Positions 6,829-25,772 of a stretch of 39,884 bases of DNA are shown here, in pieces. The DNA is from a virus, in IMG/VR virus record IMGVR_UViG_3300044655_000452, positions 1 through 39,884 of that record; one strand, written 5' to 3'. The first letter of the stretch is position 1, and the number at the start of each line of letters is the position of its first letter. Made by a program: the position numbers and the translations under genes. Under the pieces are notes generated by a model. It did not search any database, was not told the origin of the DNA, and saw only the letters and a program-made list of their open reading frames with translations.

Positions 6829-7748
6829 ATACGCAAACCAAACGCTTTCTCCAAAGTTGAAACCATAGACGAAACCTCGGCATTAGCCTGATTCGTGTAC
6901 TGATAACCATACTTTGGATTAGTTTTCAAAGTAGTCATCCATTGACCCAAAGACATCGGGCCATCTTGCCCTTGCAAAGCATCAGCGTACATCGTTGGTA
7001 CACCGTTTGCGTCAATGAAATCAATTTGGTCAGGGGCTTTTTCTAACAACGCAGCGGCATACTGTCGATAAGGAGCAAAAACTTGTTGAATGGTCAGACC
7101 GCCATCAATGTCTTCTTCAGCACCCTTATACAATTTGCGGGCAACCATTCTGTAAGATTGACGCAAATCTTCTTTCGATTTACGGCCAGTCAAAACATCT
7201 TGGACTTCTTGATCTGATAACTTCACACCATAATCTCGACCAATAGCACGGATACTGTTGGCTTCAGCAGACGACAATGCGCGTGACGCAGGTGTAGCAG
7301 CAACAAAACCCGTTGCCCCAGGTACCGTGGACAAAGCCTGTTGATAAACAAAGAGTTCTAAAGATTTATCGTTCTTTTGATCTCGTGCAGATTTCTTTGC
7401 TATCTCAGCCAACTGCGAATCTGTGAATTGTAGATTACCGTATTTGTCTTTCAAAACCGTCAAATACTTATCAACCGATGCCTGCTGGTTCGCTGGAGTT
7501 GATTTATCAAATGCTTGTTGTGCTGTAGTGGTATTGCGGTAATAGCCAGTTCCAGTAACACCTTGAGTCATCAAGGTTTCTAATTGATCTGAGTCGTACC
7601 AATTTTCGGTAACTGCTCGACGCAACACGTCACCCATATCTGCGCCAAATATTGTTTCGTCAAGAAGATATGCGTATTGCGGAAATTTTTGTTTGAAAGT
7701 TTCTTCCCACGAAACAACAGCAGGTTTCTTTTTCTTTTTAGCAGCCAT
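6825..7748 (-). CDS. Uncharacterised helical virion-associated protein (307 aa)
   Basis: It starts with a Lys run (AAKKKKKPAVV), then WEETFKQKFPQYAYLLDETIF and a mostly helical body with AAxRALSSAEANSIRAIGRDYG and QEVQDVLTGRKSKEDLRQSYR. Two partners nearby, the 271- and 367-residue proteins, share the same style. No signal peptide, membrane segment or enzyme motif is seen. The start overlaps the preceding stop as TGATG, so the genes are coupled. A role as internal or ejection protein, or head-assembly factor, is inferred from the gene order only. Confidence 0.65.
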   Translation of the reverse strand: MAAKKKKKPAVVSWEETFKQKFPQYAYLLDETIFGADMGDVLRRAVTENWYDSDQLETLMTQGVTGTGYYRNTTTAQQAFDKSTPANQQASVDKYLTVLKDKYGNLQFTDSQLAEIAKKSARDQKNDKSLELFVYQQALSTVPGATGFVAATPASRALSSAEANSIRAIGRDYGVKLSDQEVQDVLTGRKSKEDLRQSYRMVARKLYKGAEEDIDGGLTIQQVFAPYRQYAAALLEKAPDQIDFIDANGVPTMYADALQGQDGPMSLGQWMTTLKTNPKYGYQYTNQANAEVSSMVSTLEKAFGLRI

Positions 7749-8563
7749 CAGCGACCTAACAACCTTTCAAGAACGGAAGCAGCACGAGCCGCACCTTGCA
7801 CCTGCATCTCAGATTCACGACCCTCACCAACAGCCAACTCACCTAAAGTAGATAACGCAGGAACATCCCCACCTGACAACTGTTTAGTCGTCTGCGATTG
7901 TTGCACATACGAAACAGCATCACGAACTTCGGCAGGGGTCATAGCACGACCCAACAAACGCAACGACTCCCCACGCAACACTTCACTAATATCCTCTTTA
8001 GAAGAAACACGAACACGAACACCAGCCTTCTCAACAACCGGATACTCGGAACGCAAATAAGCCAAAGCCGGTGAACGCAAACTATCGGCAGTAACACCAA
8101 AACGATTAGCCAACAACAAATACTGTTCCATAGCACGAACATCTTGGCTATCAAAACCTGACACAGATGGTTTACTGCCACCATAAAGACCACGCGCGTA
8201 CAGTTCGTTTTGCAACGTCATCCGTTCAGCTTTGGTTTTAATCGAAGCCAAAATACCGTAAGCCTCATCAGGATCATAAACTCCACGGTTTGTAATAACT
8301 CCACGTTCGTTTACAAGACGTGGACCTTCGTACAACAAAAATTTGTCTTGACCGACAGGTACAGGGCCGACAGTCGGTTTGAAAAAACCTTGTTCTAAAC
8401 CTGCATCGGTGTTAACTAAAGCAGCGGTAGATGGCACAACTTGACGAGCAGGGAACTGATAAGTTGAAGGCAACGAAAAACTATCACCAACAGTATTCAC
8501 CGTTGGGCGTGGTTCAACATCGATTCCTGTTTCGCTAGTAATATCTGTGCCTGTGTCACTCAT
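7748..8563 (-). CDS. Uncharacterised virion-associated protein (271 aa)
   Basis: The N-terminal third is Thr/Pro/Val-rich and probably disordered. The middle holds NRGVYDPDEAYGILASIKTKAERMTLQNELYARGLYGG, and a helical C-terminus contains TPAEVRDAVSYVQQSQ. The phrase 'DVRAMEQYLLLANRFGVTADSLRS' has parallels in the neighbouring 307-residue protein (ANSIRAIGRDYGVKLSDQ), both leading into a 'fSxEDxxxxLR' segment, hinting at a shared helical module. Start and previous stop overlap as ATGA. Function is unknown. Confidence 0.65.
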   Translation of the reverse strand: MSDTGTDITSETGIDVEPRPTVNTVGDSFSLPSTYQFPARQVVPSTAALVNTDAGLEQGFFKPTVGPVPVGQDKFLLYEGPRLVNERGVITNRGVYDPDEAYGILASIKTKAERMTLQNELYARGLYGGSKPSVSGFDSQDVRAMEQYLLLANRFGVTADSLRSPALAYLRSEYPVVEKAGVRVRVSSKEDISEVLRGESLRLLGRAMTPAEVRDAVSYVQQSQTTKQLSGGDVPALSTLGELAVGEGRESEMQVQGAARAASVLERLLGR

Positions 8564-11500
8564 AATTCATCTACCTCAGATGATAGTTCCTGATCCCATA
8601 AACGTTGAAAGTCGGGTACACGTTCAGCCAAAGCCGACCCAATCGAATATAGCCAATCACGCAACGGTTCAGCTTTTTTACCTGACAAATCACGCAACCC
8701 CAAAGCCGCAGCATCAGCATACGCTTCATCTCGATAACGCAAATAGTCGCGCACAGCACTAGCAATTTCGTTGTTGGCAAGTTTCGGATCAACAACAATT
8801 TGCTTTAATTGGGCAATACGGACATCTGATTTGTTTACTTCAAAAACTGCTTTAGGTGGGAAACCTGGATACTTTTCGTGGATTTTGAGCCGTTGACGAG
8901 CCAACCAATCTCGTTCTTCCTGCTTAGGGTACTGACCGACTTCGGCTTTCAGGTCACGATACAAAGCCGAACCGATACGGTATTGAGCCAAAGTCAGCAT
9001 TTCTTGATCGTCTAACTGTTTACGACCACCGGTTCGAATTTGGCGTTCCCAAACAGAGAAAGAAAAGTCATCACCACCTGGAGCAAAATAGGCTGCTACT
9101 TCAGAATATGTACGCAACAAATCTTGGTTTGTGCGTTCCCAATCCCCAAACTGTTCCGTAGCCAACAATCCAGGTTGCTGACTTCTAGTTTTTGATGACA
9201 GATACATGAAAGCATCGCCACCAAATTTTTTAATAAACTCCTGTACAGCCGTGTCATAGTTTTGTTGTTGTAGATCATAAAAAGTTTTTGTCAACAACGA
9301 AGCCATAACATCGCCGTCTTTAGTTGGAACAATAAATTCTGTTGTAGCCGAAGTAGGTCCAATGAATTGAGATAACGCTCGCAAACCTGTCAAAATTCTT
9401 GCTTTGCTTTTAGCGTCATCAAAAAGTTTTTGTTGTTCAAGAGGGTTAGCAAGATCGTATTCTCCTGATGCCGACAACGCCCGCGCAGTCTCCATGTATG
9501 TGTTTGCGTAAATGGAATCAAGTTTGCCTGGGTTTGCTTCAATGGCTGATTGCAGTTTTGAAAGCCAACCTGGGGTAAATTGCACTCCTTCTTTACGACC
9601 ATAAGGCAACAAAATTTCGGCAATAAAATCTGTTTTAGGTGTATCCGGCAATAATTTTGATGCCGCTAATTGCACCATAGGGCCGACACTAGGAATAACT
9701 TGCAAACCAAGCGACAAACGTTTTACGGGTGCTTGCAACTGTGCTTCTGTACCTGTCAACAATTTTGTCAAACTTCCCGAAAAAGGAAAGTTAAACATTT
9801 TTTCGTTAGTAACTGGATCAGGGTAAAAGAAACCTTGCCCGTCATTATCTGGGTCAAAGTTTGTTGCGCCGTTATAGATCAGTTGTGCGCGACGAATACG
9901 GGCAGGGTTTTCCAACAAATGACCTACCCAAGTTGACATAACTTCTCGATAAGCAACACCGAAAGGAACAACGATACGAAGTATGTCTTCAAGATTGTTC
10001 CGTGAATGAGCATTATACAAAGATTCTTTGGTTAAATCTGCTGCACGAAGTTGCGCATAGTCATCTAATTGTTGCAATGTTCCTTCGCCGTTAGCCGCAG
10101 CAAGTTTGGTTTGTATTGTTTTCCATGTTTTTTGACCACCAACAAATGCTTCTTTTGTCATGCCGTAATCTTTGGCAAGTCGGTCAACGGTTTTAACAAA
10201 TTTTGTTGCTTCTTCTACTGAAAGCAAATCCGCATAACGGGCTACGCCTTCGTAATAAAATTGGCGAAACAATGGGGAACGTTCAAGCAATTTTTGTCCT
10301 GTGCCATAAAGCGAACCAAAGAACCAGTCGGTCACTTTGTCTTTTCCTGTTTGGAACTGTTGTTTCAAATTGCCGTCAGCCTGACGGATGTATTCAGGGC
10401 CTTTAACGTTTTGCGGTAATTTAGCGTTGTATGCAGGATCGGCTGCTCTGCTTTTAATGTATTCAGCAAATTCTAATTTGCCTTCAGGCGTGTCAAACAC
10501 ATCATATTTTGAAACTTGTTGAACACCCCATCGAGCGTCATTTGTTGCATCAACCACAACCCCTAAAATTTCGTCACCATTTTCGTCAACACCAAGACGC
10601 ACCAATGAACCTCTGCCTGGTGTTACGGGTCCATCAAGATAAGAACCTTCTAAGTCGCGTGGGTCAACAGTAATTCTGTCACCCATCGGAACTCGACGAT
10701 GACCAAGAATAAATCGCATTTCTTCGTCGCCACCAGTTTTTAATGCGACACGAGAATCACCTAAACGTTCAATCCATTCTCGTAAAACTTTGTCATCAAC
10801 TTCCTGCACCCGCAACATTTGACCGTAACCGTTTTTGTCAACAACACGGAAACCACCCTGCAAAAACTTTGTTAAACTTTCTAACGCCCTTTGACCTTTT
10901 GGTGCTTCACGCAAATAATCAATGATCGTGTCCGTACCAATACCTTTAGATAAAGCGTTCATAATCGGGTCAAACGCAATTTGTTGATATTCGTATTGCA
11001 AAGCCTCTAACCATTCATCGCGTTCGGCGGTGCGATTATAGGTTTTGAAATTACCTGATTTAATTGCTTTGGCTGTCTCAGTTATTGGGTCATCAAGGTT
11101 TTTACGAATACCATCGTTCATTGCGTTAGCAAAAAAATCGGTTTCTTCATCCCAATTTTGGGCAGTTTTTGTAATAAAGTCATCAAATTCTTTGCCGACA
11201 ATAGAAGCAGGTGCTTTTTTGTGAGCTGCCCACATAACGTATTCCCACGGTTTATTAAAAAATGATGCTTTACCTAATGTCGCCATGCGCAACTGTGCGT
11301 CAATCATGTTGCGCATAACATAACCACCGGTAGCCAAAGCCAACGGTTTCCAAATTTCATTTTGCAAATAATCAGCGGCTACTATCGCAAAACGTGGATC
11401 GCCATTTTGTTTAGAAAGAGCTGCTTTAATAATTGGATCAGTTGTTATTCGTCGAGTTACCCGAACATCAGGCAGAACTAAAGCCGAATCCAACAATTCA

Positions 11501-18462: not shown

Positions 18463-19120
18463 ATTATTTTCTTCGAACAGTAGCAACGAACAAAACTGTC
18501 TGCTACGATCACAACCGCAACTCACGGCCGTACACCCCTTGCAAGGTGCGGGGCATTGAACACCTGGGAACAGGGGTAGATCTCTATGTCATGTAGAGAA
18601 GCAGCGTAACTAACGTCAACTAGTTAAACATGGTGTCGGCTAAAACAATGGCTAACGGCTACCAACTCTCACAAAGAGTGAACAGTGGGGGGAAGCACCT
18701 GTCGCACATACGTTTGACCTAGCGCACTCGCATACGCTCGCTTGCTCGCAGCGACAACCAGCACCCTTTGTCGACATGCCTCTTTTTTTGCCGTTTTTTT
18801 CTATGGCAAAACGTTCTCGTCGCCCACCCACAGCGGCCACAAAACCACACACAGAGACACACCCTTATACATATCTATAGCCCCCCGCGCCAAGGCAGAC
18901 CCCCACCTAGCACCCCCGCCTTGTCGGTGCGTCGTCGTGCCTTTGGATCTGCGTCTATTGTGCGCTCATAATAGCCATTATGTAAAGTTAGGGAGCAGCC
19001 GCCCCCCGCCGGTGGCAATTTCGACACGCCATCGGGGCATCGTTGGCAGCTTAAGAGTGTTCGCATCGGTTAATTCGTAATATCGGAGCAACTGCGCCTA
19101 GTTGTTTTGTTGGGGGGTAT
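18463..19120. other. Gene-free control region, candidate origin or structured RNA region
   Basis: No convincing gene was found in these 658 bp. Contents include a CTCTA/TAGAG hairpin near 18582-18598 and a region rich in GCTCGC-type repeats near 18727-18752. The palindrome TGTCGACA lies at about 18769-18776, and two runs of seven T lie at 18782-18800. Four runs of five or six C lie between 18881 and 19007, G-runs on the minus strand that could form a quadruplex. An interrupted palindrome, CATAAT and ATTATG, lies near 18966-18981. The frames that cross it are low-complexity and lack ribosome sites. It separates the two divergent transcription units. Confidence 0.6.
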
Positions 19121-19149
19121 TTGACTTTTGTTTATTGTTGGTATATTGT
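19121..19149 (+). promoter_or_regulatory. Sigma70-type promoter of the plus-strand cassette
   Basis: TTGACT at 19121-19126 is followed by 17 bases and TATTGT at 19144-19149, or by 15 bases and TATATT at 19142-19147. The surrounding stretch is AT-rich and stands just before the first plus-strand gene. Start of transcription is predicted near 19156, at the left arm of an inverted repeat. Confidence 0.7.
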
Positions 19150-19156
19150 TATGGAT

Positions 19157-19177
19157 AGATCATTAGTCAAATGATCT
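19157..19177. promoter_or_regulatory. Operator-like inverted repeat at the start of transcription
   Basis: AGATCATT and AATGATCT pair perfectly over 8 bp around AGTCA. The repeat overlaps or follows the predicted start of the plus-strand transcript, the classic place for a repressor operator. It is not followed by a T run, so it is unlikely to be a terminator. Confidence 0.55.
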
Positions 19178-19202
19178 TTGCACTTCGGGAGTGGTGCTTA
19201 TT

Positions 19203-19547
19203 ATGTCTAGTCATTACGAAGATCAAGAGAGAGCAGCTAACGAGTTCGCTAAGTTGTCGGGGTTGCCATTCGTTTATACTTTTACGGGTGGCGGTTGCGA
19301 TGCTATTTATGGTGAAACTATTAAGCACCGTGTTTATATTACTGATGATGCGAGCGTGCCTAGCCCTAATGCCACCCACTATGTCGGGGTTTATTCGTTA
19401 GATGACGATGATCTAGTGGGGGAGTGTTGGGCTGCTAATCGTGGCGAGTTGTTGGAGTTGTTTAGTAAGTTTTCTACGCTTGATGAATTAGTAGATACGA
19501 TTATCGGCGACGGGTTTAACGGTTTCGCAAATGTGGGGGCGTTGTGA
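19203..19547 (+). CDS. First gene of the plus-strand cassette, unknown (114 aa)
   Basis: The protein starts MSSHYEDQERAANEF and is acidic, with a predicted mix of strands and helices and a C-terminal FSTLDELVDTIIGDGFNG. No domain is recognised. I choose the ATG at 19203; GGGAG lies 11 bases upstream. An in-frame GTG at 19191 overlaps that site and is less likely. Being nearest the promoter, it should be among the first phage proteins made. It overlaps the next gene by 4 bases (GTGA). Confidence 0.7.
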   Translation: MSSHYEDQERAANEFAKLSGLPFVYTFTGGGCDAIYGETIKHRVYITDDASVPSPNATHYVGVYSLDDDDLVGECWAANRGELLELFSKFSTLDELVDTIIGDGFNGFANVGAL

Positions 19548-19693
19548 TCCGAACTAGGGGCGAGATCACCTATTGTTATGTCTGTGGCGAGCTGCTTAGT
19601 CTTTGCGAGTGCCGACGGTGCCAAGAGTGTGAAGAATTAACGCCTATCGATATCGCCGATAAGCGTTGCGAGTGTGGGGGCGAGTTCTATTAA
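19544..19693 (+). CDS. Tiny Cys-rich zinc-ribbon-like protein (49 aa)
   Basis: The 49-residue protein carries CYVC at 11-14, CECRRCQEC at 21-29 and CEC at 42-44, nine cysteines in all, and ends GGEFY. The spacing of CxxC pairs indicates one or two zinc knuckles. It starts with GTG, overlapping the previous stop as GTGA. Cassette position and small size suggest a protein-binding or nucleic-acid-binding regulator, but nothing specific can be said. Confidence 0.72.
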   Translation: MIRTRGEITYCYVCGELLSLCECRRCQECEELTPIDIADKRCECGGEFY

Positions 19694-19701
19694 GTTGGCA
19701 G

Positions 19702-19787
19702 CCTAGCCCGTTAGGGGTGCGCCCGTCGTAGGGCGACTAGGCACTAGCGGGGCAATTCCGCCCCGTGAATAAATAGATGGGAGTCTA
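19702..19787 (+). promoter_or_regulatory. Repeated leader, copy 1: hairpins plus TAGATGGGAGTCTA
   Basis: Copy 1 has CTAGCCCG, then GCCC/GGGC arms at 19721-19734 followed by GACTAG, then a strong hairpin with arms CGGGGC and GCCCCG near 19748-19765. The 14-base element TAGATGGGAGTCTA is at 19774-19787, 5 bases before the ATG. TAGA and TCTA can pair around the ribosome-binding GGGAG. The same 14 bases occur before two other cassette genes. Confidence 0.8.
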
Positions 19788-19792
19788 TATAT

Positions 19793-20104
19793 ATGGATAC
19801 GAAACAGTTAGAGCCAATTAAGGCTTGCCAGATTAGGCAAACTTATAGAGTGAGCTTGTCGGCTAAATATTTGCCGACAACTAATAATCGGGGCAGTCGA
19901 ATAGCGGTATGTCGTGCCGATGGTGGGCGTGATCCTATGCGGCTTGTCGTTAGTTGGGACTATGCGCTAGATGTTGCCAACAATTACGCCCAAGCGTTTA
20001 GCCAATATGTCGCCCGCCAGAATTGGGGCGGGTCTTGGGTTATCGGCAGCACCGATAGCGGCTATGTCGCCGTTTGTGATGATCCGCAATGGGCGGGGGC
20101 GTGA
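19793..20104 (+). CDS. Small conserved phage protein of unknown function (103 aa)
   Basis: The protein has AKYLPTTNNRGSRIAVCRADGG at about residues 24-45, MRLVVSWDYALDVANNYAQAF, and a WGGSWVIGSTDSGYVAV end. I have an impression of similar small proteins ('tNxRGSRI... yDYal... nhxxA... W...w..g....gyv.v') in marine and freshwater phages, none with a known role. Its start is fixed by the repeated leader, whose GGGAG lies 9 bases upstream. The stop overlaps the next ATG (TGATG-type). Confidence 0.75.
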   Translation: MDTKQLEPIKACQIRQTYRVSLSAKYLPTTNNRGSRIAVCRADGGRDPMRLVVSWDYALDVANNYAQAFSQYVARQNWGGSWVIGSTDSGYVAVCDDPQWAGA

Positions 20105-20316
20105 TGTCTAACGAGATCACGACGCTAGGCGATGCGCTTAATTATTTTGGGGCTATCGGCGGGCTTGTCTTGTCGATTGTCGCCGTCGTTGTTGGTGGTG
20201 CGTATATTGGGGAGCGATGGCAGCGGGCAGCTTGTCGTCGTCGCCACCCCGCAAGTGTTGGGCGACGGGCGCGGATAGTTGCGCAACGTCGCGCACGTTT
20301 AGACGGGCGGGCGTAA
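20104..20316 (+). CDS. Small membrane protein with Arg-rich tail (70 aa)
   Basis: Residues about 12-37 (LNYFGAIGGLVLSIVAVVVG onward) form one transmembrane helix. The remaining half is Arg-rich, which by the positive-inside rule would face the cytoplasm. The ATG at 20104 overlaps the previous stop; GGGGG lies upstream. An early membrane protein could affect superinfection or host envelope functions, but this is a guess. A holin role is less likely because the lysis genes lie elsewhere. Confidence 0.65.
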   Translation: MSNEITTLGDALNYFGAIGGLVLSIVAVVVGGAYIGERWQRAACRRRHPASVGRRARIVAQRRARLDGRA

Positions 20317-20591
20317 TGATTGATCAACAATTAAGCCAAGCTGCCCTACTAAATAACGCTCTAGCCGTCATTGAGAATGAGCTAACAGCGTGGGGGATCG
20401 ACAACTATTTAGGGTATCGCCCACCAGATCACGGGATCATTCGGCTATCGGTTAGCGGGGCGACGAATATTGCCGAACTAATCAACATATTTAACCGCGA
20501 GATTGAACGGCTAACAAGTATAAATAAAAGCTTTAGAGAGAGATTAAAGCTTTGTATTGAACAAGTAAACGAATTAGACGGCGGGGGGTGA
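20316..20591 (+). CDS. Unknown small early protein (91 aa)
   Basis: The protein has a helical N-terminus (QQLSQAALLNNALAVIENEL), a central DNYLGYRPPDHGIIRLSVSG strand region and a long C-terminal helix (LINIFNREIERLTSINKSFRERLKLC) with heptad character. No enzyme motif is seen. The last Ala codon/stop of the previous gene and this ATG share a base (TAATG). The coiled-coil tail suggests it works as an oligomer or binds a helical partner. Confidence 0.68.
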   Translation: MIDQQLSQAALLNNALAVIENELTAWGIDNYLGYRPPDHGIIRLSVSGATNIAELINIFNREIERLTSINKSFRERLKLCIEQVNELDGGG

Positions 20592-20595
20592 TTAT

Positions 20596-20841
20596 ATGAA
20601 CGGGGCAGATTATGACACGGAGCTATTCACGGAGATCTCTAGCGCGTCGTCGTCGGGGCAAGTTCTTCGAATTGAGAGCGAACTAGCCAACATTGAGACA
20701 GGGCTAGGGCTAGACGGGCGGGCGTTGGAGCTTGTTAGCGCGATAATGAACGCCGACGGGGAGCTATATACCGACGGCGAATGTTTAGACATAATTGGGC
20801 GCATCGTCGATATCTGGCGAGCAACTAATTTAGACGCTTAG
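20596..20841 (+). CDS. Unknown acidic early protein (81 aa)
   Basis: This very acidic protein (theoretical pI clearly low by inspection) has a helical middle, LRIESELANIETGLGLDGRALELVSAIMNADGEL, and ends DIIGRIVDIWRATNLDA. A run of six G bases lies 6-11 bases before the ATG. Small acidic early proteins of phages are sometimes DNA mimics, but composition alone does not establish that. It is the last gene before the second repeated leader. Confidence 0.68.
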   Translation: MNGADYDTELFTEISSASSSGQVLRIESELANIETGLGLDGRALELVSAIMNADGELYTDGECLDIIGRIVDIWRATNLDA

Positions 20842-20849
20842 AGCGTCGC

Positions 20850-20937
20850 CCTAGCCCGATATTGGGGCAGCCCGTCATTGGGCAACTAGGGGCAAGGCTT
20901 AACGGCCGATTAACAACCAACAATAGATGGGAGTCTA
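20850..20937 (+). promoter_or_regulatory. Repeated leader, copy 2: hairpin plus TAGATGGGAGTCTA
   Basis: Copy 2 has CTAGCCCG at 20851-20858, then GCCC/GGGC arms at 20870-20883 around GTCATT, followed by AACTAGG. The 14-base element is at 20924-20937, 4 bases before the ATG at 20942. An ATG inside the element (20927) would give a longer frame but would destroy its own ribosome site, so the later start is chosen. Confidence 0.8.
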
Positions 20938-20941
20938 TGAG

Positions 20942-21565
20942 ATGATAGATAAAGACACGGCGACATCGACAACGACGGCGACACTAGGGGATCTAGTGCG
21001 CATCGTTGGGGCGATGTCTCAACACGTAAGCACCGATACGGCGCGGCAAGGGTTATGCGCAATCGTTATTGGGGCGGGGCAGATAACGGCGACGGATAGT
21101 TACACGGCGGCGATATTCACCCCCGACACGGCGATAACCACCGGCGATACCGTAATGATTAACGGGCGGGAACTACTGACGGCGATAACTAATGCGCATA
21201 AGACATTAAAGCGCGACGGGGTGCCGACAATAGAGCTAGTGAGCGACGGGCGACGATGGGTTATGACGGCGACGGGGGCGACGGCGACGACAACGGCGGG
21301 CGGCGATATCATCGACGCGTCGTATCCGAACGTAAACGCCGTATTCAACTTGTCGGGCGACAAGTTCGACGGGTGGTTGCCAACAGGCGTGAACGGCGAC
21401 TATCTCGCCAGAATCACAACTGCGCACGACAAGCTAATCGGCAGGGCTACGGCTACACCGCTAGTCATAAAGAATTGGCAAGGCAACACCAAGCCGATTC
21501 AATTTGAGACAACTACAGATCTAGGCATATTGGCACAATTACTAATGCCGGTTCGTCTAAAATAA
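20942..21565 (+). CDS. Short DNA polymerase sliding-clamp-like protein, beta/DnaN-like (207 aa)
   Basis: This is probably a processivity clamp or a clamp mimic. LGDLVRIVGAMSQHVSTDTA at residues 15-34, then LCAIVIGAGQITATDSYTAA at 38-57, match the opening of beta clamps ('L..al..v...vs.d..rp.L.gv.....g.l.atDgy..a'). ASYPNVNAVF at 126-135 resembles the 'YPdy..v.P' segment, and LLMPVRL at 200-206 resembles the clamp C-terminus ending in MPMRL. At 207 residues it lacks about 150 residues of the normal 360-380, roughly one of three domains. Bacterial clamps are dimers of three domains; this might form a trimer, as two-domain clamps such as T4 gp45 do. No phage polymerase is seen, so it may serve or compete for host polymerase. 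Confidence 0.6.
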   Translation: MIDKDTATSTTTATLGDLVRIVGAMSQHVSTDTARQGLCAIVIGAGQITATDSYTAAIFTPDTAITTGDTVMINGRELLTAITNAHKTLKRDGVPTIELVSDGRRWVMTATGATATTTAGGDIIDASYPNVNAVFNLSGDKFDGWLPTGVNGDYLARITTAHDKLIGRATATPLVIKNWQGNTKPIQFETTTDLGILAQLLMPVRLK

Positions 21566-21578
21566 ACCCCCCTACCGG

Positions 21579-21659
21579 TAGCCCGTCGTCGTCGATGTTG
21601 GCGGCGGCGGGATACTATCAACCTACCCCTACCAGATAGGGCAACTAGATGGGAGTCTA
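21579..21659 (+). promoter_or_regulatory. Repeated leader, copy 3: hairpins plus TAGATGGGAGTCTA
   Basis: Copy 3 has TAGCCCGTC at 21579-21587 and CCCT/AGGG arms at 21627-21641, followed immediately by GGGCAACTAG, which overlaps the 14-base element at 21646-21659. That element ends 3 bases before the ATG at 21663. The order of parts matches copies 1 and 2, but the spacing between hairpin and element has collapsed. Confidence 0.75.
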
Positions 21660-21662
21660 GAA

Positions 21663-21818
21663 ATGATTATCGTTCGCAACCGCGACGGAAGCTACCTGAT
21701 CTCCGATGTCATCGACGGCTACCGTGTAGCCCGCCGATATGTCGGCCACACTAAACGCTACGCGCAACAACTATTTAGGCAAGAGATTAAACAACTAAAC
21801 AAAGGAGACAACCAATGA
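21663..21818 (+). CDS. Small basic protein (51 aa)
   Basis: The 51-residue protein opens MIIVRNRDGSYLISDVIDGY, a strand-rich segment, and ends in a helical, basic region (YAQQLFRQEIKQLNKG). GGGAG of the repeated leader lies 8 bases upstream. The pattern 'I.r.dGsYli.d..dGyrvarryvGhtk.ya..lF..e' looks like a small DNA- or RNA-binding adaptor, but this is only an impression. Overlap with the next gene is ATGA. Confidence 0.7.
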   Translation: MIIVRNRDGSYLISDVIDGYRVARRYVGHTKRYAQQLFRQEIKQLNKGDNQ

Positions 21819-21982
21819 TCCGCACGAACACTACCGACGCGTTCACAACGACGTGCCTGATCCTATTTGTGATCGCATTGTTTACCGGCAACGATAGCAC
21901 CGGTCTCGATTGGTTTATCCGCGCTTTATGCGTCTACCCGTTTACGCATTTAGCGTGGCGGGCATACCGCCGCACCCGTTAA
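21815..21982 (+). CDS. Small membrane protein (55 aa)
   Basis: A hydrophobic segment at residues 13-24 (TCLILFVIALFT) and a second around 34-49 (WFIRALCVYPFTHLAW) suggest one or two membrane passes, with a basic tail (YRRTR). A strong ribosome site, AAAGGAG, lies 8 bases before the ATG. It overlaps the preceding gene by 4 bases. Function is unknown. Confidence 0.68.
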   Translation: MIRTNTTDAFTTTCLILFVIALFTGNDSTGLDWFIRALCVYPFTHLAWRAYRRTR

Positions 21983-22036
21983 GTTAGGCAAGTTATTCGA
22001 CGGCATCTCATATCGCGCTACCGCCTACCCCGACAC

Positions 22037-22279
22037 GTGTGGGTAGCGCAACGCCACGACGGGCGTTATTGGGCGGGGGAATACAAGTGGCTTGGCACGA
22101 CGTTCGTGCGCGACCTACACGCCGCATACGGTTGGGGTAGCCGGTCAGCTTGCGAGTGTGCGATTCGATCTACAGAATGGAATACAGCGAACTTTACGGT
22201 GGATACGGTGCTACCGGTGCGCGTGAACTACGGCGATCTAGTCGCCGATAAACCGCCACGACGCAACAAGTTCGCCTAA
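22037..22279 (+). CDS. Last plus-strand gene, unknown (80 aa)
   Basis: The protein begins VWVAQRHDGRYWAGEYKWLG and continues with aromatic and charged residues to CECAIRSTEWNTANFTV. The GTG at 22037 has no good ribosome site. The same frame is open back to the stop of the membrane-protein gene at 21982, so the true start is uncertain. In another frame, bases 21984-22046 read LFDGISYRATAYPDTCG before a stop, which looks equally protein-like. A frameshift between the two, programmed or from assembly, is possible. Its last 42 bases run opposite the minus-strand gene at 22238. Confidence 0.5.
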   Translation: MWVAQRHDGRYWAGEYKWLGTTFVRDLHAAYGWGSRSACECAIRSTEWNTANFTVDTVLPVRVNYGDLVADKPPRRNKFA

Positions 22280-22366
22280 CTCGATGTCGGTATAGTCGGC
22301 GAGTGGCGTATCGTTGTCGGCTAACGGGTCGGTGATGTCATCGAATAGCGACGGCTGCCAATTCAT
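22238..22366 (-). CDS. Small acidic protein at the end of the minus-strand block (42 aa)
   Basis: The 42-residue protein begins MNWQPSLFDD and is rich in Asp/Glu (DITDPLADNDTPLADYTDIE), ending LVASWRFIGD. The start overlaps the previous stop as ATGA, exactly as elsewhere in this block, which is the main support for it being real. It is the last minus-strand gene before the convergent plus-strand cassette. Its 3' end overlaps that of the plus-strand gene by 42 bases, tail to tail. Function is unknown. Confidence 0.6.
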   Translation of the reverse strand: MNWQPSLFDDITDPLADNDTPLADYTDIELGELVASWRFIGD

Positions 22367-22671
22367 ACGGCTTGCCATACCCTGATCGGTCTAGCGTGGC
22401 ACTCAGGCCTATTTGATGGCCGATACCGGTTCGTTGGTGCGATTAACCCTAAGCGTTTAACGGCGACCACTACCGCGCCGATTGCGCGTGGTTCGTGCGG
22501 GGTTGCGATACTTTGGCGTTCAAGTTCGCACCAAATGTCATCGGTAGTGAAGTCAAAACTGGTTGCTGCTATGTCTTGAACGATGTTTACGGCGTGTTGC
22601 CACCAGTCGGGGTCGGCATTTACGGCGACATCTACCAAAGCTTGATTGCGTAGTTGGGTGCCGGTGTTCAT
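22363..22671 (-). CDS. Conserved phage protein, possible winged-helix fold (102 aa)
   Basis: The protein has RNQALVDVAVNADPDWWQHA, then FTTDDIWCELERQ, PHEPRAIGAVVVAVKRLGLI and a C-terminal NRPECHARPIRVW. I recall proteins of this pattern ('ftxDDvWxxL...pxepRalGxvxxxaxrxGlixxt...s.r...HxrpvxvW') in many unrelated phages. The alternation suggests a winged-helix nucleic-acid-binding fold; the role is unknown. The frame opens upstream at 22722, but AAAGGA 9 bases before the ATG at 22671 and the domain start support this choice. Confidence 0.72.
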   Translation of the reverse strand: MNTGTQLRNQALVDVAVNADPDWWQHAVNIVQDIAATSFDFTTDDIWCELERQSIATPHEPRAIGAVVVAVKRLGLIAPTNRYRPSNRPECHARPIRVWQAV

Positions 22672-24755: not shown

Positions 24756-24971
24756 TCAGAGTTCAATACCCTGGGCCATTGCTACTCTCATTCGTTCAAC
24801 CATTTGCATATAGATGGCGAGCTGTCGTTGAGATTCTGTTAACGCTGCTTCTAGTATTCGTGCTTCTGTTTTTAGGTCGTCGCGTTCTTCTCGTACACGA
24901 TCTAAACTGTTTTGCAAATCGTTGCATCGGGCATCCCACATCGCTAACTCTGCTGCCAATGTATCGGTCAT
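24756..24971 (-). CDS. Coiled-coil protein (71 aa)
   Basis: Almost the whole length is one heptad-patterned helix (ELAMWDARCNDLQNSLDRVR, then EERDDLKTEARILEAALTES). It starts at an ATGA overlap with WhiB. Such small coiled coils often act as oligomerisation partners or anti-host factors; no specific role can be inferred. The conserved position next to whiB makes a shared regulatory task possible. Confidence 0.65.
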   Translation of the reverse strand: MTDTLAAELAMWDARCNDLQNSLDRVREERDDLKTEARILEAALTESQRQLAIYMQMVERMRVAMAQGIEL

Positions 24972-25252
24972 AACCCCATCCTAGCCTTATATTTGCGGCT
25001 GTGTAAAGTTCTGCGACGATCCGACGATGACTTGCCACCCCAAACTCCGTACATGATTTCGTTGTCGAGCGCAAACTTTAAGCATCGTTCCCGCACCGGA
25101 CAGTTTGAGCAGAACTTTTTTGCTGCGCCGACAAGATGGCTTTCACCGATCTCAGGGAACCACGATATGCCGTCTTTGGTGTGGCATTTGGCGTTCTCCA
25201 TCCAGTCGGTGTTCTTGTCCATCAATTTGTATGAAGTAAGTATTTCTCCCAT
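24968..25252 (-). CDS. whiB: WhiB-family Fe-S transcription regulator (94 aa)
   Basis: WhiB proteins bind a [4Fe-4S] cluster through four cysteines and interact with the principal sigma factor of Actinobacteria. The cysteines are at residues 23, 48, 51 and 57 (C-x24-CxxC-x5-C, within FCSNCPVRERC), followed by YGVWGG at 68-73, the usual G[VI]WGG turn, and a basic tail SDRRRTLHSRKYK for DNA contact. The frame opens further up at 25360, inside the lysozyme-like gene. I choose the ATG at 25252, 4 bases after that gene's stop, with GGAAAG upstream. It probably redirects host transcription or competes with host WhiB proteins. Confidence 0.88.
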   Translation of the reverse strand: MGEILTSYKLMDKNTDWMENAKCHTKDGISWFPEIGESHLVGAAKKFCSNCPVRERCLKFALDNEIMYGVWGGKSSSDRRRTLHSRKYKARMGL

Positions 25253-25256
25253 AGCT

Positions 25257-25772
25257 TCACTTTCCCCAGGGTGTGAACCCGTTTCCGTTGGTTTTTTGGG
25301 CGTAGTCATAGATTGCTTTGGCTGATCTAAGGTTTGTTTGCGGATCGAATAAGTCTTCACAATACTGGATTAAACCTAATGTTTGCAAGTATCCGGCAGG
25401 ATAGTAGCGGGTTGGTTTGCACCATGACCTGTCGTTGATTTGGGTTAGGCCAAGATCGGTTGACCCGTCGGCGTTCAGGGTGGTGTTGTGGGCCAGTTTC
25501 AGGCACCGTGATTCGCGGTGAATGATTTGGTCTAGGGTGCGGAGTTGGTCGGGTTGCCAGCCTGCTGTCAGGGCTACATCCCACCATTGGGGGCATAGGG
25601 CTTTGGTTTTGGTGTTGGCGGCAGGGTCACGCCAGACGCGCTGTATTGCGTTCTGTGCGACGATAACCGTCGGTGCTGTGTTCACCACAGGGGGTGTTTC
25701 GGCGAGGCTTGTGACACCCCCAACCGTGAAACTTACCGTGAGTACGGCAAATAGCCGTGATAGTGCATCCAT
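25257..25772 (-). CDS. Secreted lysozyme/transglycosylase-like enzyme (171 aa)
   Basis: A signal peptide or membrane anchor spans residues about 5-24 (SRLFAVLTVSFTVGGVTSLA). The domain from 58 on carries HRESRC with the probable catalytic Glu87 and STDLGLTQINDRSW at 104-117, the typical 'DxGLxQIN' of lytic transglycosylase/lysozyme folds. It should cut the glycan strand of peptidoglycan. It lies far from the M15 peptidase lysis group, inside the DNA-metabolism cluster, which is unusual. It may be carried in the virion or act in a separate step. GGGAG before the ATG. Confidence 0.78.
   Translation of the reverse strand: MDALSRLFAVLTVSFTVGGVTSLAETPPVVNTAPTVIVAQNAIQRVWRDPAANTKTKALCPQWWDVALTAGWQPDQLRTLDQIIHRESRCLKLAHNTTLNADGSTDLGLTQINDRSWCKPTRYYPAGYLQTLGLIQYCEDLFDPQTNLRSAKAIYDYAQKTNGNGFTPWGK

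Follow-up and report, generated by a model that had tools for sequence, protein, structure and literature searches.

A predicted RNA hairpin that carries the Shine-Dalgarno (SD) sequence in its loop was found directly in front of start codons in the IMG/VR virus record IMGVR_UViG_3300044655_000452, whose 39,884 bases were analysed over their whole length and are called the window in the following. The element, a hairpin of 4-6 bp with the loop TGGGAG or CGGGAG directly 5' of a start codon, recurs in ~30 related uncultured phages. Judged from these sequences, the loop is fixed while the stem is kept by pairing and not by sequence, and the hairpin looks like a real, selected device controlling the start of protein synthesis. 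In our view it is probably an RNA element for translation initiation, located in the 5' leaders of short units of non-structural genes in one family of actinobacteriophages; the units are probably early, as far as their non-structural content indicates. These multi-copy leaders of actinobacteriophages provide comparative evidence, by compensatory change, for selection on an SD sequence in a hairpin loop.

The 14-mer TAGATGGGAGTCTA is present in the window in three exact copies (19774-19787, 20924-20937 and 21646-21659), all on the plus strand and ending 5, 4 and 3 nt before the ATG at 19793, 20942 and 21663, respectively, as stated in a preliminary description of this DNA. If simple ACC/GCC repeats are disregarded, no other 14-mer has three copies in the window, and none of 50 first-order simulations of the window contained a 14-mer that reached three occurrences. 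The arms TAGA and TCTA, described as flanking GGGAG, indeed form an inverted repeat, but the true stem comprises 5 bp around the loop TGGGAG, with ATAGA/TCTAT in two copies and CTAGA/TCTAG in one. Therefore, two stem types that are one compensatory pair apart are already present in the window. The count of three copies holds for exact ones only; a fourth, diverged hairpin, GCACT-T(CGGGAG)T-GGTGC at 19180-19197, precedes the ATG at 19203 and had been overlooked. Since its score with the hairpin model alone is low (13.2 bits, E value 0.35), its assignment is based on the orthologous slot in six relatives, where the hairpin is conserved at the same place and its stem covaries. Every SD hairpin of the window (hereafter H2) has a second hairpin (H1) directly upstream; the leaders are numbered 0 to 3 in the order of their start codons. 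They are located in a plus-strand island (~19.2-22.3 kb) that is flanked on both sides by minus-strand blocks, and the view that the element is start-associated, strand-fixed and part of a non-structural cassette is supported. No exact copy precedes genes of the minus strand, in agreement with the preliminary description, and the best minus-strand matches of the hairpin model were at noise level.

Relatives were collected by protein search, which yielded 8 loci with the clamp-like protein encoded behind leader 2, 79 with the terminase and 33 with the c0 protein (many on contigs already found); related uncultured viral loci used for comparison are given L-numbers. Near matches to the window DNA were sought among phage records and relatives of the terminase in cellular genomes, with no match in either case. 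Perfect 5-bp palindromes were then counted around all 4096 hexamer loops in the relatives, and TGGGAG ranked first on its strand by a wide margin, with 30 distinct contexts (0.28 expected) and nine different arms; a start codon follows in 30/30. Under wider rules, which allowed an inner mismatch and G-U pairs, 79 distinct leaders with 25 arm sequences were obtained, including ATAGA/TCTAT, CTAGA/TCTAG, CTGAA/TTCAG, ATAGT/ACTAT, ACACT/AGTGT, ACAGT/ACTGT, ACGCT/AGCGT, GCCTA/TAGGC and GACTC/GGGTC. The sequences are related and not independent, and counts are given without p-values. In 39 sequences H2 was paired to 94%, with a covariation score of 0.94 compared to 0.26 for shuffled and at most 0.11 for slid partners. 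Because these 39 rows had been chosen for pairing, two tests that are independent of pairing weigh more. Leaders found by protein similarity alone contained the hairpin, with differing stems, in 7/7 close orthologues of the clamp gene and in 14/16 orthologues of cluster c0. Compensatory arm changes before orthologous starts, the check proposed in the preliminary description, were thus seen: the stems differ and pairing is kept by two-sided changes. Among c0 protein orthologues at 35-40% identity a hairpin of this kind was looked for and was absent.

Specificity was determined at 561 start sites having GGAG at a distance of 4-13 nt. The hairpin was found at 53 of 88 YGGGAG starts (Y being T or C) but at only 3 of 473 other NNGGAG starts. 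Starts with xAGGAG had it in 1/222, although this is the commoner and better 16S-pairing form at other genes of these phages, and the only A-initial loop among the hairpinned NNGGAG starts was a single AAGGAG. Therefore, the element is a separate signal, and a general habit of these genomes to place SD sequences in hairpins was rejected.

In a tree of the terminases the element was present in 33/38 rows of one clade (support 94/94) and in 0/13 other rows; the label needs three changes on the tree, which fits one gain and two losses. Compensatory stems are maintained across terminases down to 77% identity. When 2.9 million viral contigs were scanned for exact copies of the 14-mer, 104 stretches were obtained, mostly unrelated. 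Those in start-codon context were clade members or had no two-hairpin architecture, and the match in L055 lies inside an apparent coding region, also without this architecture; exact matches beyond the clade look like chance. Within the clade, the gene at 21663 is preceded by the hairpin in the window, where it is the first gene of its unit, and by none in L116, L118, L122, L177 and others, where it lies inside an operon. The same dependence on the first position was found for the clusters c10, c19 and, partly, c5. Genes behind leaders encode a clamp/RusA-like protein and ArdA-like antirestriction proteins (c2), and L117, L118, L119 and L120 have similar leaders with other genes between them. 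By these comparisons the leader belongs to whichever gene comes first in a unit and not to a gene family; it behaves as the head of a unit with exchangeable genes.

The loop and the inner pair of the stem are coupled. In T-type loops, one of which is TTGGAG, the inner pair was Watson-Crick in 59/59, whereas in CGGGAG loops it was A.A, T.T or T.G in 20/20 and Watson-Crick in 0/20; the search rules would also have let in the opposite combinations. This rule indicates that stem stability is balanced. With a mean energy of -5.45 kcal/mol (standard deviation 1.65), H2 is less stable than random stems of 5 bp that carry the same loops (-7.1 kcal/mol). In MS2, the energy of the hairpin at the initiation site determines how strongly the coat gene is translated, and hairpins weaker than the wild type bring no gain in yield (PMC9894550). 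By analogy, the H2 stems may be near the point where the ribosome just opens them. Accessibility was predicted from folds that extended, for each leader, from H1 to 30 nt beyond the start. H2 formed with a median probability of 0.91, exceeding 0.5 in 78% of the instances, and GGA in the loop was predicted to be unpaired with 0.85-0.94, compared to 0.47-0.69 for 136 ordinary starts with AGGAG in the same phages. The folding thus predicts the SD sequence to be displayed in the loop, and not hidden in a mini-hairpin as proposed before. In the predicted fold GGGA is a GNRA-type tetraloop closed by U-G or C-G, but this idea is optional since the single TTGGAG breaks the GNRA pattern.

H1 was detected within the search distance upstream of H2 in 69/79 leaders, with ~25 different arms. 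It comprises 4-10 bp and in most leaders ends 0-8 nt upstream of H2, which itself is separated from the start codon by 0-8 nt. H1 of slot B showed two-sided changes in 3/5 pairs, and in the leader-0 slot of the six relatives both hairpins covary. A TTGAC begins 34-38 nt before H1 in 49/69 leaders but only in 6/69 of a control stretch. The corresponding TTGACA-type promoters have spacers of 17-18 nt and a -10 that ends 5-8 nt before H1; from this spacing the 5' end of the transcript is predicted to lie at H1 or in its immediate vicinity. A three-way junction precedes the hairpins of leaders 1 and 2. In L110 and L112 its outer stem is kept and the inner arms are unrelated, and in more distant phages the fold is similar while the sequence is unrelated; strict alignment gave modest covariation support, with one two-sided pair. 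The CCC/GGG hairpins and the motifs GGGC-R-ACTAG and TAGCCCG noticed before are present as described, but their structural roles differ between the leaders: they form the three-way junction in leaders 1 and 2, and in leader 3 ACTAG is an arm of the SD hairpin.

A mechanism may be outlined from these features. As a cap at the 5' end, H1 would protect the mRNA from 5'-end-dependent decay, and H2 would isolate GGA(G) and show it in its loop to the 30S subunit, its stem (~-5.5 kcal/mol on average) being just weak enough to be melted by the ribosome once AUG enters the P site. A putative trans factor, a phage or host protein, would probably recognise H2, lock it and time gene expression, like the operator hairpins of other phages. 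Two features make a loop-reading regulator plausible: the invariant second G, at a position where ordinary starts of these phages favour A, is not best for the 16S tail, and stem stability follows the balance rule; still, the existence of a trans-acting factor is the weakest step of the explanation. Tentatively, the leaders may represent a new class of phage translational operator, in which one fixed Y-GGGAG-loop hairpin shape heads several units and one putative RNA-binding factor switches a whole group of early genes when the ribosome docks. The loop might then hold GGA pre-stacked, as in a GNRA-like tetraloop formed by GGGA with U-G or C-G as the closing pair, ready to pair with the 16S tail.

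Several points weigh against a translation-initiation element of this design. The counts of the 39-sequence covariation test are inflated, since the sequences were partly picked for pairing. In ~22% of the instances, including leaders 0 and 2 of the window, folding of the isolated leader gave a stem probability of H2 below 0.5. Leaders 1 and 2 are without a recognisable promoter, so that the role of H1 at the 5' end is not valid for all leaders, and promoter assignments as well as hairpin energies are predictions. Gene families whose presence follows that of the element were also sought, which returned mostly shadow frames and no convincing trans factor. Homologues of CsrA or RegB, the two proteins known to read GGA(G) at such sites (PMC7652899, PMC3014915), were not found in 10 phage records.

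A translational operator proper, in which a phage or host RNA-binding protein reads the YGGGAG hairpin by loop sequence and stem shape and excludes the 30S subunit, like MS2 coat protein, T4 gp43 or CsrA, is a real possibility, although we do not favour it. A loop that is invariant beyond the needs of an SD sequence, combined with a free stem sequence, is the signature of hairpin-binding regulators, and one signal is common to several units. The sites of RsmE/CsrA are ANGGAN hexaloops with GGA at positions 3-5, often over an SD sequence and preferably on weak stems (PMC7652899). The geometry of GGA is shared by H2, but its loop is YGGGAG, once TTGGAG, and starts with T or C and never with the conserved A of CsrA sites; moreover, the searches for candidate proteins mentioned above found none. 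The operator of T4/RB69 gp43 is likewise a phage mRNA hairpin at or near an initiation site, with conserved loop letters (PMC3014915), and expression in MS2 depends on hairpin free energy (PMC9894550). Each of these operators serves a single gene, whereas here one signal heads several units, the SD sequence itself is the loop and the trans factor is only putative. It is slightly less likely that the hairpin acts without any regulator, by merely keeping the SD sequence unpaired in GC-rich structured leaders and, together with H1, stabilising the mRNA. Such passive presentation would agree with the predicted openness of GGA compared to ordinary starts, with stems that are weaker than random ones and with H1 at the predicted transcript 5' end, but it leaves unexplained why xAGGAG is nearly absent from hairpins and why the Y/inner-pair rule is strict.

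Cleavage is improbable. T4 RegB cuts GGAG in the SD sites of early mRNAs and does not need S1 if GGA is unpaired and the last G constrained (PMC3014915). The loop of H2 would fit a RegB-like phage endoribonuclease that turns the first genes off, but strong RegB sites have an A-rich 3' context that is lacking here, cleavage by RegB is generally hindered by RNA structure, and none of the 10 records encodes a homologue. Even less probable is an element at the DNA level, be it an operator palindrome, a promoter part as proposed for extended start-associated sequences (ESAS) or the DNA-bound site considered in the preliminary description. Many copies are indeed located some tens of bp behind a promoter, but the 25 different arms vary freely around a fixed asymmetric centre, the element is always on the coding strand and at start-codon spacing, and it is present also in the promoterless leaders 1 and 2. 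Finally, the leader 1 sequences of the window and L112 differ very little, indicating that leaders move or convert. A recent leader duplication kept by descent only and without function can nevertheless hardly be believed, as it is contradicted by the compensatory changes in 25 stem types, which persist among terminases down to 77% identity.

The translation-initiation element was compared with the start-associated sequence (SAS) of cluster K mycobacteriophages, to which the preliminary description had likened it. SAS is a fixed 13-mer with an SD core, 3-7 bp before the start, that occurs in many copies and one orientation at non-structural genes; some copies have an extended upstream element, the ESAS, whose repeats were judged not to pair as RNA (PMC3203893). 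Later work placed putative promoters within the extended repeats (PMC11373665). The likeness holds for the place near the start, the single orientation, the class of genes, the SD core, the symmetric outer bases, the multiple copies and the occurrence in actinobacteriophages, but not for sequence, mode of conservation or membership. SAS has near-invariant 3-bp arms around a centre of 7 nt, whereas the present element has a fixed YGGGAG loop on a covarying stem of 4-6 bp; ESAS is a 17-bp imperfect inverted repeat that overlaps a promoter and is not like an RNA hairpin, whereas H1, with 4-10 bp, shows covariation and follows the promoter. The SAS 13-mer GGGATAGGAGCCC gave no match in the window with up to two mismatches, while a stretch of Mycobacterium phage Anaya, used as positive control, contained 16 same-strand copies under the same conditions. 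Most of these are identical; in the few that differ, the arms are broken or the centre is altered, without compensation. The hairpin model found no match in Anaya or Streptomyces phage Stella. Since the SAS arms are fixed without covariation, 25 compensated arms are found here and the SAS sequence is absent, the element is not a member of SAS; it acts at the same site as SAS and possibly in a similar manner. The function of SAS has been a question since 2011, and the present system offers a model for it that can be tested, namely a ribosome-binding site shown in a loop; the leaders are ~45 nt long, modular and independent of the gene behind them, which makes them suited to reporter tests. A search of the window, L130, L140 and L148 with 4227 Rfam covariance models gave no result above gathering score, the best one in 18900-22400 being at chance level (E = 3.5).

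The features of the four leaders are all on the plus strand. Leader 0 has a sigma-70-like promoter (TTGACT, 17 nt, TATTGT; 19121-19149), which matches the consensus, has the same arrangement in relatives and ends 7 nt before H1, AGATCATT(agtca)AATGATCT (19157-19177), the predicted 5' end of the transcript. The diverged H2 is followed by the first gene of the cassette (19203-19547), which encodes a protein of 114 aa without assigned function that has an orthologue in L177. A 49-aa zinc-ribbon-like open reading frame (ORF) with Cys pairs (19544-19693) overlaps the 3' end of this gene; by tblastn it was matched only in L177 among the loci searched. The three-way junction of leader 1 (19701-19742) consists of P1 (GCCTAG/CTAGGC), P2 and P3, and the outer pair of P1 changes from G-C to C-G between the leaders. 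It is followed by H1, CGGGGC(aattcc)GCCCCG (19748-19765), and H2, ATAGA(TGGGAG)TCTAT (19773-19788, 25.2 bits). In leader 2, the junction (20849-20892) has P1 CCCTAG/CTAGGG, which is kept in L110 and L112, with P2 and P3 wholly different there; a small hairpin, GGC(ttaacg)GCC (20896-20907), precedes H2, again ATAGA(TGGGAG)TCTAT (20923-20938). The gene behind it (20942-21565) encodes a DNA clamp/RusA-like protein of 207 aa (PHROG 3007, E = 2e-12; PHROG 947, E = 5e-6). Downstream of this gene and upstream of leader 3, a strong 10-bp hairpin, CCCGTCGTCG/CGGCGGCGGG, was found (21582-21611). Leader 3 contains, by comparison of the leaders, a -10-like TACTAT (21613-21618), H1, CCCTA(ccaga)TAGGG (21627-21641), with covariation in its slot, and H2, CTAGA(TGGGAG)TCTAG (21645-21660, 27.1 bits). 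The -35 that matches this -10 in L108, L110 and L112 is missing in the window: at 21580-21620, ~30 nt with the TTGACA of the third promoter are absent. The missing stretch lies where the first downstream gene of the unit is absent as well, and the leader-3 unit of the window may be decaying.

The minus strand of the window carries the terminase and portal genes. A C5 DNA methyltransferase, recombination proteins and a WhiB-like protein (24968-25360) are also encoded. To our knowledge, WhiB is restricted to actinobacteria and their phages, and the host was therefore taken to be an actinobacterium. The closest isolates are Streptomyces phages with ~25-30% protein identity to the window, one of the nearest being Stella (Beephvirinae, Flowerpowervirus). 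The leader-bearing cassette (19203-22279) opposes the terminase strand in the window, L112 and L110 and runs along it in L117-L120; the differences in orientation and content would correspond to cassette exchange or inversion at one site. On the minus strand, an ORF of 271 aa (7748-8563) has TCATCT(GAGGT)AGATGA right before its ATG (~8560-8600), that is, 6 bp around a GAGGT SD sequence; this is a single case and possibly due to chance. In the non-coding gap that precedes the terminase operon, a stretch of ~170 nt (18522-18693, plus strand) is conserved to ~70-80% in dozens of related loci, among them L160 (8560-8724) and L218 (9680-9870) and including phages without the SD hairpin. This stretch had no match in Rfam even at an E value of 5, and RNAalifold predicted 36 pairs, 9 of them with two-sided changes, which makes it a candidate for a new structured phage RNA.

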